A stretch of 61,942 bases of DNA from a virus. How positions within the stretch are numbered: position 1 is the stretch's first letter; the number at the start of each line of letters is the position of its first letter. Under the pieces are notes generated by a model, which ran no database searches, was not told where the DNA came from, and worked only from the letters and a program-made list of their open reading frames with translations. This document shows, in pieces, positions 15,466 to 34,099 of this stretch. Both the position numbers and the translations under genes were made by a program. The DNA lies in IMG/VR virus record IMGVR_UViG_3300044533_000356, positions 1 through 61,942 of that record; one strand, given 5' to 3'.

Positions 15466-15642
15466 TTACAGGGGTAGCTCTAACTGGCGTGGGTCTTTGG
15501 TGGGGAACCCTTCAAAATGCACCAGTGCACTAAACCGCTCGTACAGCTCTTTCACGACTTCGGCAGGCACGTTGTAGTTGGCCATGTAGATGTGCGTCAG
15601 CAGTTCTTCGTTGCTCAGGGTTTCAGGTTGTACTCGTGACAT
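15466..15642 (-). CDS. small protein of unknown function, 58 aa
   Basis: The second ATG (15642) is preferred over that at 15654 because a GGAGA motif lies just upstream of it. The sequence MSRVQPETLSNEELLTHIYM is helical and ends in Leu-rich QLELPL. It overlaps the HTH gene by 28 nt and sits 19 nt before the primase-helicase, so it is co-expressed with both. Confidence 0.65.
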   Translation of the reverse strand: MSRVQPETLSNEELLTHIYMANYNVPAEVVKELYERFSALVHFEGFPTKDPRQLELPL

Positions 15643-26628: not shown

Positions 26629-27132
26629 TCACCCCACCAAGACGTTACGCAATGCTTTGAACAGTGCGATGGCTTGATGCACAGTCAGCTTGTCGATGAC
26701 ATCGTCCGGTGACCACTGTTTAACCTCCGGGGTAGGCTCGGCAACGGGCGCTGCTTTGCGAGTGATGGTGACGATCTTGCGCTGCTGTGCTTGTGGCTTC
26801 GAAGCCTGCGCCTTGAGTGCCCTAGCTGACTTGAGCGGCGTGTACTCGTTGGTTGTAACGTACAGCAGGTGTGCGCTCTCGCGCATCAGGCCTTGCTTGA
26901 GCATCTGCCCAAGCAGTGAGGACACAGAACCGGCCTTGTAGCCTTGCTTGGCCAACGCAAGAGCGACCTCTTTGCGGGTCATACCGGGGTTGTCCCGCAC
27001 GAAGTTGAACGTGATGCGGGTCACGTTGTTGGTCACAGTGAAGTAGGGCTTGGCAGGCTCGGGCACAGGGGGCGAGGCAGGCGGCTCCCAATCGTCGAGG
27101 GCTTGGCGTAAAGCAGTTGCAATATCAGGCAT
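26629..27132 (-). CDS. putative winged-helix protein, 167 aa
   Basis: The start MPDIATALRQAL at 27132 has an AAGGAGAA leader. Residues about 50-98 (NPGMTRKEVALALAKQGY, SVSSLLGQMLKQGLM) form a winged-helix domain. The rest is a basic linker and an acidic C-terminal helix. It is a candidate early transcription regulator, but no family is named. Confidence 0.68.
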   Translation of the reverse strand: MPDIATALRQALDDWEPPASPPVPEPAKPYFTVTNNVTRITFNFVRDNPGMTRKEVALALAKQGYKAGSVSSLLGQMLKQGLMRESAHLLYVTTNEYTPLKSARALKAQASKPQAQQRKIVTITRKAAPVAEPTPEVKQWSPDDVIDKLTVHQAIALFKALRNVLVG

Positions 27133-27734: not shown

Positions 27735-28013
27735 TCAAAACTCCTGTGGTGGAAACTCAAAGTAGTCGAACATGGCGTCGATGACATGCGCCAGCAACTC
27801 AAGCTGCTCCCACCACTCAGCGTCGCTCACATTGTCGTACCTACTCCAGCGCGTCATTTCGTACTTGTCTAGCACGTCATTGATCGGGCCGAAGGTCTGG
27901 CCCAACTCGTTGAACAACTCCACCGCCATCTCTGGCGTGAGGGCCGTGTTTCCGCTGTCAGATACAAAGTGCATCACAGCAGCGGCTTTGGCCGAGTCAC
28001 TTACTTTTTTCAT
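27735..28013 (-). CDS. acidic protein of unknown function, 92 aa
   Basis: Helical, acidic and Trp/Phe-rich (DAEWWEQLELLAHVIDAMF). A GAAGGAGAA ribosome-binding site precedes it, and palindrome 1 lies 23-47 nt upstream of the ATG. No family is recognised. Confidence 0.65.
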   Translation of the reverse strand: MKKVSDSAKAAAVMHFVSDSGNTALTPEMAVELFNELGQTFGPINDVLDKYEMTRWSRYDNVSDAEWWEQLELLAHVIDAMFDYFEFPPQEF

Positions 28014-28035: not shown

Positions 28036-28060
28036 CTGGTGATACACCACGTATCACCAG
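28036..28060. repeat. dispersed palindrome, copy 1
   Basis: Arms CTGGTGATAC and GTATCACCAG pair perfectly over 10 bp around ACCAC. It is 8 nt downstream of the stop of the peptidase-like gene (minus strand) and upstream of the 92-residue gene. Within the 21-bp consensus it carries one change in the right arm. Confidence 0.85.
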
Positions 28061-28068
28061 CGGGTTGA

Positions 28069-29190
28069 TTACACGGCGTAGGACTGGTCGAATATCTCGG
28101 CCAGCACTGCTGTGGGGTCATACGTTGCGCTGTTCTTGAGCGCAGTGGCAAGCACCTGCTCGTCGATCTTGTTGCGGTCAATCAGGCGCTCGGCCATCTC
28201 TGGGTCTTCGGGCCACACGGACTCACACATCATCTCAATGAGCCACTGCTTACTGCCAGCTTGCGCATCGTACAAAGCCTCCTGAAGCTCGATGGTGTAA
28301 GAGTCATGGTCATAGTCGGCATCATCAAGGTGATGCCACTTAGTCCAGTCGCTTGCATAGGCAGAACTGACACCCGTCAGGGGAGTCCCTGCGTATGCGC
28401 CGTACCCCCAGTCCATGTACTCCACCACAGTTGGGTCACGGTCAGTGGGCAGGGAGTCCCAGTCGATGAGCGCCACACGATCGGCCAGTGCTTGGAAGTG
28501 GACGATGTCGAGCGACTCCTTGTCACTGTGCTCAGAGTAGTAGCCCACGCTGATGTTGGTGCACTCGGGTATGACCTCGATGAACTCGGCCGTGTCGGTA
28601 TACACCCCTGTGTTGTCGGGCAGGTACATCAGCGTCATGTCCTCGTTGAGCGCGGCACTGAGGGCATCGGCAAACGCATCAGAGCAGCAGCGCCCACGGC
28701 CTTGGTGTGTGATGACACTGTCGATACCCCTGCGGTCAAACGCAATCGCCCGGTCGAACTCAGCCAGTAGCTTGGCGTCATGCTTGGCCAGATGCGTAGC
28801 ACCGATACCGCCGCACTCCTCACCTTGCGTGAAGATGTAGTAGGCAGGCACACCGCTGTGCATCAAGTGCATGAGCATCGCCACACCCGCGCCATCATCG
28901 GCCCCCAAAGCTGCACCGTCAGCGTACCAGTAGGTAGGCGTCTGCTTGATCTTGTTGGGGCCCTCCTTGCGGTGCACAGTGTCAACGTGCGCAACGAACA
29001 GCGTCCGGTTGGATGAGTTGAGCCGCGTGTCAACGTGCAGGTTGCCAGCAGCATCGCGCTTGATGCGAGCATCAGCAGGGACACGTTGCTCAAGCCAGTC
29101 AGTCAAGCGGCGTGTACCCTCGCTGTTGTGTGGGCGCATCATCGAGAGCGCACGGGCAAGAGTCTTGTACAGGATAGTGTGTTTGTTCAT
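28069..29190 (-). CDS. M20/M28/M42-like zinc peptidase homologue, 373 aa
   Basis: The motif order follows di-zinc aminopeptidase-like enzymes. LFVAHVDTVHR supplies the first His/Asp, ALGADDGAGVAML the bridging Asp, FTQGEECGG the catalytic Glu pair, AIAFDRRG another Asp, and YYSEHSDKESL the last His. The first 250 residues cover that fold; the C-terminal ~110 residues are acidic and unrecognised. Such a gene is unusual in a phage early operon. It could process host peptides or act on a host defence or regulatory target. Its ATG overlaps the previous stop by 4 nt. Confidence 0.8.
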   Translation of the reverse strand: MNKHTILYKTLARALSMMRPHNSEGTRRLTDWLEQRVPADARIKRDAAGNLHVDTRLNSSNRTLFVAHVDTVHRKEGPNKIKQTPTYWYADGAALGADDGAGVAMLMHLMHSGVPAYYIFTQGEECGGIGATHLAKHDAKLLAEFDRAIAFDRRGIDSVITHQGRGRCCSDAFADALSAALNEDMTLMYLPDNTGVYTDTAEFIEVIPECTNISVGYYSEHSDKESLDIVHFQALADRVALIDWDSLPTDRDPTVVEYMDWGYGAYAGTPLTGVSSAYASDWTKWHHLDDADYDHDSYTIELQEALYDAQAGSKQWLIEMMCESVWPEDPEMAERLIDRNKIDEQVLATALKNSATYDPTAVLAEIFDQSYAV

Positions 29191-30629
29191 TTGGTTTCTC
29201 CATCAGTTTCGTTGGTTGTTGTCTCAAGGTCTAGCTCGGCTTGCTCTGGCTCAGGCGCATGGTCGGGGTGGTACAGGGAGCCATCCACCTCTACGCTGTC
29301 GGTGTCATCGGTGTACCAGTTGTATGAGTCCTGACACTGCCAGCAGTCATCTTTGAGCTCGTACTGATTGCTGTCCTCGGTGTAGCAGATGTCATCGTCA
29401 TCGGTATGGTAGTACGCATCACAGGACTCGACATACACAGCGTTGTCACTGTGCGTGTAGTCACCGTCATGCAGCTCCACGATGTCGTTGTCGCTAAGCC
29501 AGTCGCTGTCGTACCAGTCACCTTCTTGCGTCTGCACTGCGTTCTCGTTGTGCACGTAATACTCGTGACGCCTGCGGCCATTCACCCTCGTGTAGTTGTC
29601 GATGCAACACGGGCCGACTGTACTGTCGCCGCCATAGCCGATCGAGTAACTGTCGTCCTCGTCCATGCCCTCGCCGCAGTCATCGCAGGTACAGGTGTGG
29701 CCGTTGATGTGCCCACTTGTGCTGCACGCCTCGTACCCGTTGTAGTCGGAGATGTGGAAGGTGTCGTCCTCCTCGACAACGTGCTGGTTGCCGCCGTCGA
29801 TGTATGGCATGAGGAACCCGTCACGCCGTAGCGGGTAGCGCATGATGTGGATGTGGTCAGGCCAGCCGCGCCACTTGGCATAACCCAAGCCCTTGAGATA
29901 CGCCTCGATAGCCTCGTCAGCACCTGAGTGCGAGCTGTACTCACGCTCTCGTTTGTATGAGCGCACGAACCCCTTGTCACCATCCTCGCTCTCGTGCACA
30001 AGGCAGCGACCCAGCACCATGCCGTCAGTGTCAGTCCGCACAGCCATGCCCCAGCCAAGCGATGGGTCGTACACCTCGTAAGGGTGGCGCTCTTGCTTGT
30101 CATGGCACATGATGTCGAAGCTCGAACTCATACATGAGCGAGGCCCGTGTATCACAGCGTGAACCATCTTGTCCATCTCCTTGGTGAGTATGGTCGAGCC
30201 ACCATACGTGTACTTGGCACCGATGTCCCGGATCAGGTTCGATGGTGCGTCAGGGAAGTGACGCGTCAAGTACTTACCGATGGTGGTCACGACAGCCTTG
30301 GCATCGCTGTCGCCGTTGTGCATAGCGGACTGCTCGTTGCGTGTGTAGGCTATGCGGTTGGGGTCAGTCAGCGCCTTGTGTGGCCACTCAAGCAACAGTT
30401 GCTGCCAGTCCTCGGCACGATACTTGTGCTCGGTCATCATGTCGAACACAGCAGGGTGCAGGCTGTGGCGTGTGCGCTGTTGGTTGAACCACTCGCGACC
30501 CGGTGTAACGAGGCGGTAGTTGCCGTAGCTGATGCGCTCATGCACACCGTCAGAGACGATGCGTGCGGCGGCGAAGAATACGTAGTCCATGAAGTGGTGT
30601 GCTTCAACTCTGTCTTTCCATGTAGGCAT
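29187..30629 (-). CDS. large Cys/Asp-rich early protein, 480 aa
   Basis: The start MPTWKDRVEAHHF at 30629 has the GGAGAAAGCAAA leader. The N-terminal ~270 residues are mixed alpha/beta without a known motif. From about 320 on come cysteine pairs (CTCDDCG, CWQC) and very acidic, Tyr-rich segments such as YYHTDDDDICYTEDSNQYE. These look like several degenerate zinc-knuckle repeats, which could mimic nucleic acid by charge. It is coupled to the peptidase gene. The family is not recognised. Confidence 0.75.
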   Translation of the reverse strand: MPTWKDRVEAHHFMDYVFFAAARIVSDGVHERISYGNYRLVTPGREWFNQQRTRHSLHPAVFDMMTEHKYRAEDWQQLLLEWPHKALTDPNRIAYTRNEQSAMHNGDSDAKAVVTTIGKYLTRHFPDAPSNLIRDIGAKYTYGGSTILTKEMDKMVHAVIHGPRSCMSSSFDIMCHDKQERHPYEVYDPSLGWGMAVRTDTDGMVLGRCLVHESEDGDKGFVRSYKREREYSSHSGADEAIEAYLKGLGYAKWRGWPDHIHIMRYPLRRDGFLMPYIDGGNQHVVEEDDTFHISDYNGYEACSTSGHINGHTCTCDDCGEGMDEDDSYSIGYGGDSTVGPCCIDNYTRVNGRRRHEYYVHNENAVQTQEGDWYDSDWLSDNDIVELHDGDYTHSDNAVYVESCDAYYHTDDDDICYTEDSNQYELKDDCWQCQDSYNWYTDDTDSVEVDGSLYHPDHAPEPEQAELDLETTTNETDGETK

Positions 30630-30692
30630 TTTGCTTTCTCCAGTTTCAGATTTTAGGAAGTGATGGGTATGGTCGCCACCCATCAAGGCGCT

Positions 30693-30711
30693 GTGATACA
30701 CCCTGTATCAC
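30693..30711. repeat. dispersed palindrome, copy 2
   Basis: GTGATACA and TGTATCAC surround CCC. It ends 4 nt after the stop of the 30716-30943 gene on the minus strand and precedes the Cys/Asp-rich gene by 64 nt. Confidence 0.88.
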
Positions 30712-30715
30712 GGAT

Positions 30716-30943
30716 TCACTCAACGACAACAGTCCAGCCCATCGCCTCGATGACGCGTTTGAGGGATGGGTCTGGCGTCATGCCAACGACAATCGTTGCA
30801 GTCTTGTCGGTGTGGTTGATACGCACCATCGTCATTGATCGAGGCACCATCCATATACCGCCATCCTTGACGGTGTCGAACATGTTGCGTGTCCACTTGA
30901 CTGCGTTGCTCATGCCCGCTTTGGTGTTGAGGTCGTAGTTCAT
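30716..30943 (-). CDS. small protein of unknown function, 75 aa
   Basis: The start MNYDLNTKAGMSNAV at 30943 overlaps the previous stop by 4 nt. The protein is a compact alpha/beta type (MTMVRINHTDKTATIVVGM). It is followed directly by palindrome 2. Function is unknown. Confidence 0.65.
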   Translation of the reverse strand: MNYDLNTKAGMSNAVKWTRNMFDTVKDGGIWMVPRSMTMVRINHTDKTATIVVGMTPDPSLKRVIEAMGWTVVVE

Positions 30944-31173
30944 TTGCGTCCTTTCTTCTTTGGTACTGTGAATGTGCCAAGCCACTCAGTGCCCGGCACT
31001 TGGGGCTGGAACATATTGATGTCGTACTCAGTGGTGTGCGGTACGGGCACACTGAACAGGTTGTAGGTGTACCCGTCCTCGTTCATAAGATCGAGCAGTG
31101 CGGGCAAGTCTCGCGTCTCGTTGGTTGTGGCCCATGTCGCTACGCTTGCGGCAAAAAAGTGTTGGTCTTTCAT
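30940..31173 (-). CDS. small protein of unknown function, 77 aa
   Basis: Begins MKDQHFFAASVATWATTN and ends with basic VPKKKGRK. Its start touches the stop of the upstream gene. No domain is recognised. Confidence 0.62.
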   Translation of the reverse strand: MKDQHFFAASVATWATTNETRDLPALLDLMNEDGYTYNLFSVPVPHTTEYDINMFQPQVPGTEWLGTFTVPKKKGRK

Positions 31174-31382
31174 TACATTTCTCCTTTGATGAGCTGATCC
31201 ATGCGGTGTTGGCGGTAGAACTTGCAGAACAAGTCCCCGAACGCCGTGAGTAGGCGCTCTCTGTTGGTGGTGTCCGCTACGTAGAACGCACGGGCTATGT
31301 GCCCTGCAAAGCTACCGCCCTCACGCTCCATCAGTAGTGCCGCTGATAACAGCATGTCGTGGTCTAAGTCCATTGCTTTCAT
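31173..31382 (-). CDS. small helical protein, 69 aa
   Basis: The start MKAMDLDHDMLLSAALLM at 31382 follows an AAGGAGAAAGCAA leader; the longer frame upstream is non-coding-looking. The protein is helical with an amphipathic FYVADTTNRERLL. Function is unknown. Confidence 0.62.
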   Translation of the reverse strand: MKAMDLDHDMLLSAALLMEREGGSFAGHIARAFYVADTTNRERLLTAFGDLFCKFYRQHRMDQLIKGEM

Positions 31383-31399
31383 TTGCTTTCTCCTTGTGA

Positions 31400-31672
31400 T
31401 TAAAGTGTGCAGTACCAGCGATGGGCGCTGATACGTTTGGTTTTTAGGCGTACGTTTAGCGTCTGGTGCAGGTACGTGTTGAAACTCTTGACTGGCACAG
31501 ACTCGGTGACGCCAGTGGAAGTCTTGCGTATCTGATCGCTCTCTATGATCACAAAGCCTTGTGCTTGCATCGTCTGGTACAGCGCAGGCCAGTCGTGCGT
31601 TACCACAACCTTGGTCGGTACAGGCGTGGGCGGTAGTGTCCATGCCTCGGCGGGTATGTCTTCGATCCTCAT
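31400..31672 (-). CDS. protein of unknown function, 90 aa
   Basis: Contains a Pro-rich start (WTLPPTPVPTKVVV), then an alpha/beta segment and a basic C-terminus. The leader is again GGAGAAAGCAA. Not recognised. Confidence 0.62.
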   Translation of the reverse strand: MRIEDIPAEAWTLPPTPVPTKVVVTHDWPALYQTMQAQGFVIIESDQIRKTSTGVTESVPVKSFNTYLHQTLNVRLKTKRISAHRWYCTL

Positions 31673-31881
31673 TTGCTTTCTCCTTGGTTAAGTAAGTTGT
31701 CACGCCATGCGTCAAGCTGGGCGAGCACACTCTTGCGTGTGCCCTCGTACCCCATCATCTTGAGCGTTGAGTAGGCCGTTGGCCCACGGGACTTACTCAT
31801 GCCTAGCATCTCCAGCTTGAGCATCTGGCGCAGAATTAAGAGGCGAGCCGCTTCGATCTGGTGTCCGGTCAGTGTTGTCAT
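31669..31881 (-). CDS. small helical protein, 70 aa
   Basis: MTTLTGHQIEAARLLILRQML starts a helical protein with a possible HTH-like centre (GPTAYSTLKMMGYEGTR). Palindrome 3 lies 71-91 nt upstream. Function is unknown. Confidence 0.6.
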   Translation of the reverse strand: MTTLTGHQIEAARLLILRQMLKLEMLGMSKSRGPTAYSTLKMMGYEGTRKSVLAQLDAWRDNLLNQGESK

Positions 31882-31951
31882 GGATGTTTCTCCTTGCCGC
31901 CCCGTTGAGGTAGGCTCCACCATGCGGGCGGCGTTGCATGGTTGAGTGGTT

Positions 31952-31972
31952 GGTGATACACCGTGTATCACC
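31952..31972. repeat. dispersed palindrome, copy 3
   Basis: A perfect 9-bp copy: GGTGATACA and TGTATCACC around CCG. It begins 4 nt after the stop of the 31977-32717 gene on the minus strand. Confidence 0.9.
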
Positions 31973-31976
31973 GTGG

Positions 31977-32717
31977 TTATTTGATAAGGCCGTGCCATGT
32001 GCGTGGTAGGACTGCGGGTGGGTTGCTGTCCAGTACGTGTTGCGCCCTGTACATATCATCAAGCTGGCGGTCTAGCTTGGCTTTGGTGTCCGGGTCTTGC
32101 GTCACCTCGTACTCACGCTCGGCACTGGCGATGGCGTTGACCAGTTCCGTAGCCAGTGCAAAACTTTGCGCCTTGTGTTGGGGCTTGGTCATGCGGCGCT
32201 CAAACGGGGTCTTGCGTTTGCCTCGGGGCGGTTGGGGCAGGGAGTCGAACACAGCGGTGATGCGTTGCCTGTCGCTTGCCTTCACGTAGTCCGTCCAGTG
32301 CTCTCCGTTGTGGGGTATGACACGACCCGTCTCCTCCTTGAGATAGGCCACGAACTGTTTAGGCGTGTGCTCCGAACTGTCGCGCACCTTGACCAAGCGT
32401 TCGATCACGCCGGTGATCGCTGTCTCGTAGGCACACAAGGCGTCCCACTTGCGCTGATCGTCCGGCGTTAGCTTCTTGGTCTGGGTCTTGCGAACGTACA
32501 CAGTCTGGCGCTCGGCTCTTGCCGCCGCGAGTAGTGCCTCCCAACTGTTGGCCACGGTGGTGGCTTTGATGCGGGCTTTTCGGCGCTCGGATTTCATCTC
32601 TTGCACACGGGCCACGATCTGCCCAACGAACACAGACGGTAGCTTTTTCTCAGTTAAGAGATCACGCAAGCGGGCTTCGCTTACGTCAAGCCACCATGAT
32701 TTGATGGTTTCATCCAT
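31977..32717 (-). CDS. charged protein of unknown function, 246 aa
   Basis: The start MDETIKSWWLDV at 32717 has an AAGGAG site. The protein is highly charged and helical, with many Arg/Lys and Glu residues and no recognised motif. It is the first gene downstream of the candidate origin, and the TTAACT/TATATA promoter could drive it. It could be an origin-linked initiator or a DNA-binding protein, but only position suggests this. Confidence 0.68.
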   Translation of the reverse strand: MDETIKSWWLDVSEARLRDLLTEKKLPSVFVGQIVARVQEMKSERRKARIKATTVANSWEALLAAARAERQTVYVRKTQTKKLTPDDQRKWDALCAYETAITGVIERLVKVRDSSEHTPKQFVAYLKEETGRVIPHNGEHWTDYVKASDRQRITAVFDSLPQPPRGKRKTPFERRMTKPQHKAQSFALATELVNAIASAEREYEVTQDPDTKAKLDRQLDDMYRAQHVLDSNPPAVLPRTWHGLIK

Positions 32718-32858
32718 GAAAAACTCCTTAAATAATGGGTTGGTCAGAAAACTGTCCGATTTGGTTAGTCGTATGTCGCCCGGTTTGGACGGTCGCAAAC
32801 CCGCATGGGCATTGGGTTTGCGCTGTTTTTGTCCAGCTATCTATCTTTTTTAAAAACA

Positions 32859-32887
32859 TATATAGCCTGAACCTTTCTTTAAGTTAA
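32859..32887 (-). promoter_or_regulatory. possible sigma70-type promoter
   Basis: On the minus strand, TTAACT and TATATA are separated by 17 nt, about 140 nt ahead of the 246-residue gene. The match is moderate, and the surroundings are AT-rich, so chance occurrence is possible. Confidence 0.38.
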
Positions 32888-33076
32888 TTGAACAAACTGA
32901 GCTTCTGAGTTTACACCTACTACTAACACCTATTCTTCTATACTATAAAGTTTTTTTATAGATAGATAGATAGACAGTTTTGAGCGGGGCCACGCAACCA
33001 TGCGGGTTTGCGGCCGTCCGTACTGCAAAACTTGGACTAATCTTTTTGGACACTATTTTTTGGGTTATTTTAAGGT

Positions 33077-33097
33077 GGTGATACAAACTGTATCACC
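33077..33097. repeat. dispersed palindrome, copy 4
   Basis: GGTGATACA and TGTATCACC flank AAC. It begins 2 nt after the stop of the 33100-33324 gene on the minus strand and borders the candidate origin. Confidence 0.9.
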
Positions 33098-33099
33098 GA

Positions 33100-33324
33100 T
33101 CAGAAGCCGTCCAAGGGGCGTTGCTGGCGTATGTTGATCTCATGCCAGAGCTGGGACATGGATGCACAGGGTATCGAGACGGTCGTGCCTACCATCGCCA
33201 CGCTTGCGACCCAGTAGGGGTCACGCTTACCCTTGGGGTAGTGGATTTGAGCGCACCAAAGTGCGCCAGCTTGGTCACGCCATTGGGCGATTGTTTCGGT
33301 GGTGGGTTGCTTGAGGTTACGCAT
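33100..33324 (-). CDS. small protein of unknown function, 74 aa
   Basis: MRNLKQPTTETIAQWRDQAG begins a mixed fold with GALWCAQIHYPKGKRDPY. A GGAGAAACTTCC-type leader precedes it. Not recognised. Confidence 0.62.
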   Translation of the reverse strand: MRNLKQPTTETIAQWRDQAGALWCAQIHYPKGKRDPYWVASVAMVGTTVSIPCASMSQLWHEINIRQQRPLDGF

Positions 33325-33356
33325 GGAAGTTTCTCCTTGTCGGGCAGGATTGCCCC

Positions 33357-33383
33357 TTCAGCCCACGCTAGGAATGGGCTGAA
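33357..33383 (-). other. intergenic hairpin after a stop codon
   Basis: TTCAGCCCA and TGGGCTGAA pair perfectly over 9 bp around a 9-nt loop, 9 nt after the stop of the 47-residue gene. There is no T-tract. It occupies the same position relative to a gene end as the palindromes, but has another sequence. Confidence 0.6.
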
Positions 33384-33392
33384 AGAGTTTCC

Positions 33393-33536
33393 TTACCAGT
33401 CGCGTGTATCAGGGTTGTCGATGCGGTACTCCCGCAAGGCTTGGCCAAGGGCTGTAGCCCATCGCTTTTTGCCGGTACGCCAGCAGTAGGCTTGTAATTC
33501 GAGTAGGCGGGCGAAGTAATCTATATTGGTTTTCAT
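33393..33536 (-). CDS. small protein of unknown function, 47 aa
   Basis: MKTNIDYFARLLELQAYCWR starts a short helical, basic protein. The longer frame upstream is rejected because this ATG has a GGAGAAACTTCC leader. Not recognised. Confidence 0.58.
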   Translation of the reverse strand: MKTNIDYFARLLELQAYCWRTGKKRWATALGQALREYRIDNPDTRDW

Positions 33537-33638
33537 GGAAGTTTCTCCAAAGGACACGCATGGCCAGTGCGTTTGACACGGGGAGGAACAACGGGCCAGC
33601 CGCGCCCGTTGAAGGTTATGCAAGAAACGCATAAAGTT

Positions 33639-33659
33639 GGTGATACGCCGTGTATCACC
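33639..33659. repeat. dispersed palindrome, copy 5
   Basis: GGTGATACG and TGTATCACC flank CCG, with one change in the left arm. It begins 2 nt after the stop of the 33662-34099 gene on the minus strand. Confidence 0.88.
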
Positions 33660-33661
33660 GA

Positions 33662-34099
33662 TTACTTCAGGGCGTTGAGCAAAGCGATGGCCGCTTTGAT
33701 TTTCGCCGCACGATCTTTGCCCTCGAAGTTGCCAAGGAACTCCATCGCCATAGCCTTGGCCGCCGTGCTGATGCGCTGTTGCTTGGCAGGGGCTTTGGCT
33801 TTCTCAGGGGTGAACCACACCATGACGTTGCGTCTCCACGATTGGAACGCCGCACCGTGGCGTGACTCACGGGTGGATTCATCGCCGGTGTAGAACACGG
33901 CAGTCCCCGCCGTGTTCCATGTGTAGTTGCATCCGTACTTCGTAGCATGGACTTTTGCAAGCTCCTCAAGGAGCGTGATACACGGTGTATCACCAAGGGA
34001 TTGGGCCGCTTTGCTCATAGCATCCCCGTATGAGATGCCTGCAGTCAGGAAGTCAGAGTAGGCTTTGACGGCGGTTTCGATTGTGGTCAGTTTTTTCAT
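33662..34099 (-). CDS. first early gene, protein of unknown function, 145 aa
   Basis: The start MKKLTTIETAVKAYSDFL at 34099 has a GGAGAAAATCC leader. The N-terminal half is helical; a segment YNTW-like region and HGAAFQSWRRNVMVWF follow, then a Lys/Ala-rich helix. Palindrome 6 lies inside its coding sequence, encoding GDTPCIT. As the promoter-proximal early gene it is a natural candidate regulator, but no HTH is obvious. Confidence 0.68.
   Translation of the reverse strand: MKKLTTIETAVKAYSDFLTAGISYGDAMSKAAQSLGDTPCITLLEELAKVHATKYGCNYTWNTAGTAVFYTGDESTRESRHGAAFQSWRRNVMVWFTPEKAKAPAKQQRISTAAKAMAMEFLGNFEGKDRAAKIKAAIALLNALK
33975..33993. repeat. dispersed palindrome, copy 6 (inside a gene)
   Basis: GTGATACA and TGTATCAC flank CGG. 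Unlike the others it is within a coding region (codons for GDTPCIT of the 145-residue protein). Confidence 0.85.

Follow-up and report, generated by a model that had tools for sequence, protein, structure and literature searches.

Palindromes past early stop codons and a proposed self-regulating roadblock in uncultured aquatic phages

Why should a phage carry the same palindrome six times in its early region, mostly directly behind genes? The question is raised by a viral record of 61,942 bp, analysed at full length and called the window here, in which the palindrome GTGATACA-N3-TGTATCAC is present in 6 copies. An earlier note had taken the set as the best candidate for an undescribed control system, and offered three explanations: binding sites (operators or stoperator-like) of a protein that reads DNA as a dimer, RNA punctuation or processing, and a mobile palindromic element. 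The first of these is largely supported by covariation between sites and protein, as we discuss below, whereas the helix-turn-helix (HTH) partners named for it are not. Our reading of the whole, to which we give a probability of about 0.7 on the evidence of comparative sequence analysis, is that a dimeric autoregulator acts as a stoperator-like roadblock on the early operon. No description of such a system was found in the literature searched.

Palindromic sites in the window and in related phages

That the copies are confined to these six places was confirmed. A scan of the window for GGTGATACANNNTGTATCACC, allowing up to three mismatches, returned exactly 6 matches, against about 0.01 expected from shuffles; all six are within one mismatch of GTGATACANNNTGTATCAC, and a reversed-pattern control gave 0 matches. 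Equal matches elsewhere in the genome were not found, apart from a further look-alike with three mismatches at position 27959, which is left out of the site count. Five of the sites, which as features are unstranded, follow stop codons, with gaps measured using the 21-mer as the unit. Site 1 (GGTGATACACCACGTATCACC, 28038-28058) lies 10 nt past the TAA stop of the ORF at 28069-29190, which resembles phage peptidase genes; site 2 (TGTGATACACCCTGTATCACG, 30692-30712) is 3 nt past the TGA stop of 30716-30943; site 3 (GGTGATACACCGTGTATCACC, 31952-31972) is 4 nt past the TAA stop of 31977-32717; site 4 (GGTGATACAAACTGTATCACC, 33077-33097) is 2 nt past the TGA stop of 33100-33324; and site 5 (GGTGATACGCCGTGTATCACC, 33639-33659) is 2 nt past the TAA stop of 33662-34099. 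The post-stop position of these five had been noted before with gaps of 2-8 nt, a range that is right to within 2 nt. The remaining copy, site 6 (CGTGATACACGGTGTATCACC, 33974-33994), was correctly assigned to the inside of the first early gene (33662-34099), the proposed regulator gene, where it stands in frame 105 nt downstream of the gene start and is translated as G-D-T-P-C-I-T. Other GC-rich inverted repeats, which are not copies of the palindrome, occur in early intergenic gaps at 33340-33385, 33590-33615 and 31890-31935, and a gap between early genes at 32850-32990 is AT-rich with GATA microsatellite-like repeats.

Palindromes are present in related phages in two forms. Close relatives carry the same set at corresponding places (pattern scan of viral contigs), and dozens of others have a palindrome of their own at the matching junctions. 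Among 80 relatives collected by a terminase search, de novo detection showed that many have a repeated palindrome in the corresponding early region, mostly different from that of the window. The classes include GTGAGACA, GTGGGACA, GTGGCACA, AGAGAGA, AGATAGA, GCAGACA, GCTGACA, GGGGACA, GGGACAA, GTGGTCA, CGGGTCA, GGGGAAA and others, with an arm spacing that varies between classes; many of the relatives are fragments, and motif calls for short loci rest on 2 or 3 sites. The system is not confined to the window: it is seen in dozens of genomes from a large group of uncultured water phages. Flanks that are about 75-83% identical between the window and the relative L024 adjoin GTGATACA sites in the former and AGATAGA sites in the latter, which indicates that the sites are inherited by position and have changed in concert. 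A phage of the AGAGAGA class, L062, retains one orphan GTGAGACATGGTGTCTCAC site (L062:2276) at the edge of a 2.3-kb block that is 95.6% identical to the GTGAGACA-class phage L061. This orphan is a snapshot of a mismatched site following recombination.

Placement past stops extends to the relatives. Sites outside the regulator gene number 142, and with gene ends called from ORF length only, 66% of them have their start at -4 to +12 nt from an ORF stop, compared to 6.8% for random positions; about one third of distal sites lie more than 12 nt from any called stop. The classes that lack an in-gene site mostly have one site about 36-47 nt upstream of the regulator start codon, past a conserved leader. 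Palindromes of the phage's own class are also found at a winged-helix gene (26629-27132 in the window), 66 nt inside it in L204, L209 and L216 and about 20-30 nt before its start in L225, L233 and L234.

The first early gene and a putative binding code

The candidate reader of the palindromes that fits the comparison with relatives is the first early gene itself (33662-34099, minus strand; 145 aa), which was absent from the earlier list of partners. It is found in nearly every relative with enough sequence, starting about 830-1,550 nt upstream of the terminase gene on the opposite strand, and it follows the palindrome class. Across 43 genomes, motif similarity is correlated with first-gene similarity (Mantel 0.368, 0/2000 permutations) but not with that of the terminase (0.10, 140/2000 permutations). 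Mean first-gene similarity is 0.48 for same-motif pairs and 0.05 for different-motif pairs, compared to 0.86 and 0.83 for the terminase in the same genomes. In the pairs L061/L062, L072/L075 and L069/L085, the terminases are nearly identical, the palindromes differ and the first genes are dissimilar. The first early protein is therefore proposed as a cognate DNA-binding autoregulator. Very probably it is the binding partner of the palindromes, and protein and matching site set appear to change together, phage by phage.

The family had no significant match in Pfam, PHROGs, NCBIfam or PDB, and the protein of the window had none among 50,697 named phage records; a search of genome contigs for the regulator family also found none. 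With the predicted fold, neither Foldseek (E<=0.001) nor VIA-align (Z>=5) returned a match; designed proteins made up most of the highest rows of the structure search, from which neither novelty nor kinship can be read. The label "DNA-binding" rests on covariation, because nothing in PDB clearly matches the predicted fold. A BEN domain (PF10523) was considered and set aside as a weak lead rather than evidence, having been hit in 1 of 53 family members at 18.4 bits, below the curated cut-off of 23.2. C-terminal tails are exchanged between otherwise similar proteins of the family (L007/L013, L044/L061), so that the tail looks like a separate module.

A search with the GTG-class protein yielded 64 loci, in which the distal sites were called with the in-gene copy left aside, and 41 non-redundant proteins were compared with distal sites only. 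A correlation of the motif with residues 36-43 was dropped as trivial, since this stretch is encoded by the in-gene palindrome. Well clear of that stretch, in the predicted recognition helix (residues 80-91; 33827-33862, minus strand), residues 82, 85 and 86 covary with bases 4 and 5 of the half-site. Base 5 tracks residue 86 (z=13.4), and base 4 tracks residue 85 (z=8.8) and residue 82 (z=7.7), the z values coming from column shuffles that ignore shared ancestry. When base 5 is G, residue 86 is K in 27 of 28 proteins and Q in the other; when it is A, M in 4/5 and R in 1/5; when it is C, M in both proteins; and all six proteins with T at base 5 have Q, V or T. With G at base 4, residue 82 is D or E in 22/27 proteins; with A it is H, Q, V or G, and with T it is G. 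The three residues share one face of the helix predicted by AlphaFold, and K gives way to M at residue 86 in several different sequence backgrounds (L245/L263, L259, L283, L247/L277).

Proposed mechanism and alternative readings

The six sites would be 10-bp inverted half-sites around one central base, each bound by a dimer of the 33662-34099 protein. As the protein accumulates, it would bind the site in its own gene (in sister classes, the one in the leader) and the post-stop sites, and would block RNA polymerase transcribing the early operon. The block would limit synthesis of the regulator and shut off successive early genes. A roadblock directly past a stop codon would leave the upstream message translatable, with no ribosome to push the stalled polymerase. 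The pattern of one copy at the regulator gene and post-stop copies along one operon fits a block of elongation or early initiation, and we consider repression by roadblock the somewhat favoured outcome of binding. The system looks like a self-regulating off-switch in phages that gave no sign of lysogeny when ten records were searched for a tyrosine integrase. Site classes are diverse and have been exchanged between phages that are otherwise nearly identical, which suggests that phages are under selection to evade a co-infecting phage's regulator. A more tentative extension is superinfection immunity without lysogeny, through a DNA-binding family not described before: within a specificity group, an infecting phage might silence the early operon of its co-infecting partner, and escape would take a swap of the first early gene and conversion of all sites.

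The same protein and sites could have another outcome, the protein being a positive factor (in antitermination or activation) or one that organises or protects phage DNA. The evidence for binding is neutral on effect, and a protein that activates, antiterminates or organises DNA could equally give rise to this sequence pattern. A genome with a palindrome of its own throughout both early and late arms is known: Pag-Yong1 (OL906435, 65,014 bp) has 37 copies of GGTTCAG-N-CTGAACC, where shuffles give 0-2. Repression is nevertheless the better fit to the copies that lie within the regulator gene or shortly before it and to the dense post-stop placement within one operon, and promoter-like sequences across the palindrome region are not in excess of chance. 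We regard a non-repressive outcome as a real but distinctly less probable alternative.

Pag-Yong1 may be a distant parallel. Of its 37 palindromes, 19 are in non-coding DNA, which makes up 8.7% of the genome, and one is 56 nt upstream of the first early gene, whose product matches in the C-terminal tail only (hhalign 60%). Unlike those of the window, its palindromes are genome-wide and often 19-20 nt before start codons. The records of Pag-Yong1, Pra-JY27 (PP438419) and MinM2 (OQ594354) are all 65,014 bp long, 100% identical over the 2,001 bases compared and about 68% GC. Three different cyanobacterial hosts are recorded for them, and the phage is possibly that of a shared contaminating bacterium. 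In HTVC027P, 023Pt_psg01, Caulobacter RW and DSL-LC04, no repeated palindrome above shuffles was found in the regions read.

Sites directly past stop codons that could fold as RNA might instead be hairpins on the early mRNA that punctuate its 3' ends, are cut by an RNase or are bound by a protein. In 166 sites outside the regulator gene, mismatched palindrome pairs are G-U on the mRNA in 19 cases and A-C in 25, and deviations from the genome consensus affect one half only in 67 cases, against 1 that is compensatory in both halves. Gap-0 classes are perfectly symmetric up to the centre, where an RNA would need a loop. On the early-gene strand of the window, no intrinsic terminator was predicted at the sites and no T-tract terminator was found; the pattern is not that of intrinsic terminators or RNA hairpins, with their compensatory stem changes and T-tract. 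The one-sided deviations and the lack of G-U preference indicate that the palindromes are DNA operators, not RNA hairpins, and that the sites behave as two DNA half-sites; the punctuation or processing proposed earlier is very unlikely. The codons of the in-gene site are fixed in relatives (GGT 32/32, ACA 34/34, TGT 34/34, ACG 32/32), whereas at other conserved regulator residues the commonest third base has a mean share of 0.62, and the in-gene spacer codon varies. By this measure of codon usage, the in-gene site is under DNA-level constraint.

The four HTH proteins proposed as partners (at 15615, 24141, 25608 and 26629) failed in the comparison with relatives. The first is 97-99% identical, and the second about 80% identical, in phages with other palindromes; the third was not found in G001, a relative with the same palindrome. 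The winged-helix protein at 26629-27132, whose fold is predicted and whose family has no Pfam entry, looked promising against 20 relatives, being 88% identical in G001 and 25-39% in phages with other palindromes, and its similarity is correlated with the motif (Mantel 0.20, 10/2000 permutations). In the larger set it was refuted by near-identical recognition helices in phages with other palindromes: L172 (AGAGAGA), L171 (CTTTTAA) and L184 (AGATAGA) have the helix in common with GTGATAC phages, and L242 and L172, both AGAGAGA, differ in it. As the cognate factor it is very unlikely. A mobile palindromic element or recombination boundary sequence is very unlikely too: post-stop placement would suit insertion and L062 has one GTGAGACA-type orphan among AGAGAGA-type sites, but orthologous junctions hold different palindromes in L024 and the window, and site sets follow the first gene of their own phage.

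Relation to known systems and significance

A stoperator-like roadblock invites comparison with cluster A mycobacteriophages, in which repressors silence transcription at dispersed stoperators and diversify along with them; the stoperators of L5 and Bxb1, both temperate, are asymmetric 13-mers bound by a monomer and oriented with transcription (PMC6550527, PMC9283540). As in L5 and Bxb1, many dispersed sites are presumably read by a single phage protein and lie chiefly in small gaps between genes, some of them close to the gene of the protein itself, and motif and protein have diversified in step into specificity groups. Like L5 stoperators, the multiple sites are mostly off promoters, here 5 of 6 directly post-stop. 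Unlike those of L5 and Bxb1, the palindromes are symmetric and directly past stop codons, the regulator is the first early gene, and its protein has no detected relative, remote homology being possible. The system works like L5 stoperators; it is not filed as a member of the L5 family because of the symmetric sites, the first-early-gene position, the lack of convincing homology and the lack of a tyrosine integrase hit (PF00589) in ten records (G000-G009), which may be incomplete.

The lambda-type operators of CI and Cro are palindromic, are read by dimers and fall into specificity groups. The present sites resemble them in symmetry, in specificity groups and in probable dimer reading, but are not clustered at promoters, most being in the transcribed region past stops. 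The Kpn2I controller protein is described as a transcription roadblock (PMC6237814). The first early protein would likewise be a small autoregulator blocking elongation of its own transcript, whereas the Kpn2I controller, as described there, is a restriction-modification regulator without an operon-wide set of post-stop sites.

These comparisons turn an odd repeat into a readable regulator-operator pairing. A previously unannotated protein family, which occupies one and the same position in the genomes of dozens of aquatic phages, gains a likely function and a binding code. The many palindrome classes with their own proteins are a natural experiment in how DNA-binding specificity evolves along with all of its target sites. 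Should the sites be roadblocks, a shut-off of early genes, and perhaps a superinfection immunity independent of lysogeny, would be open to direct test.
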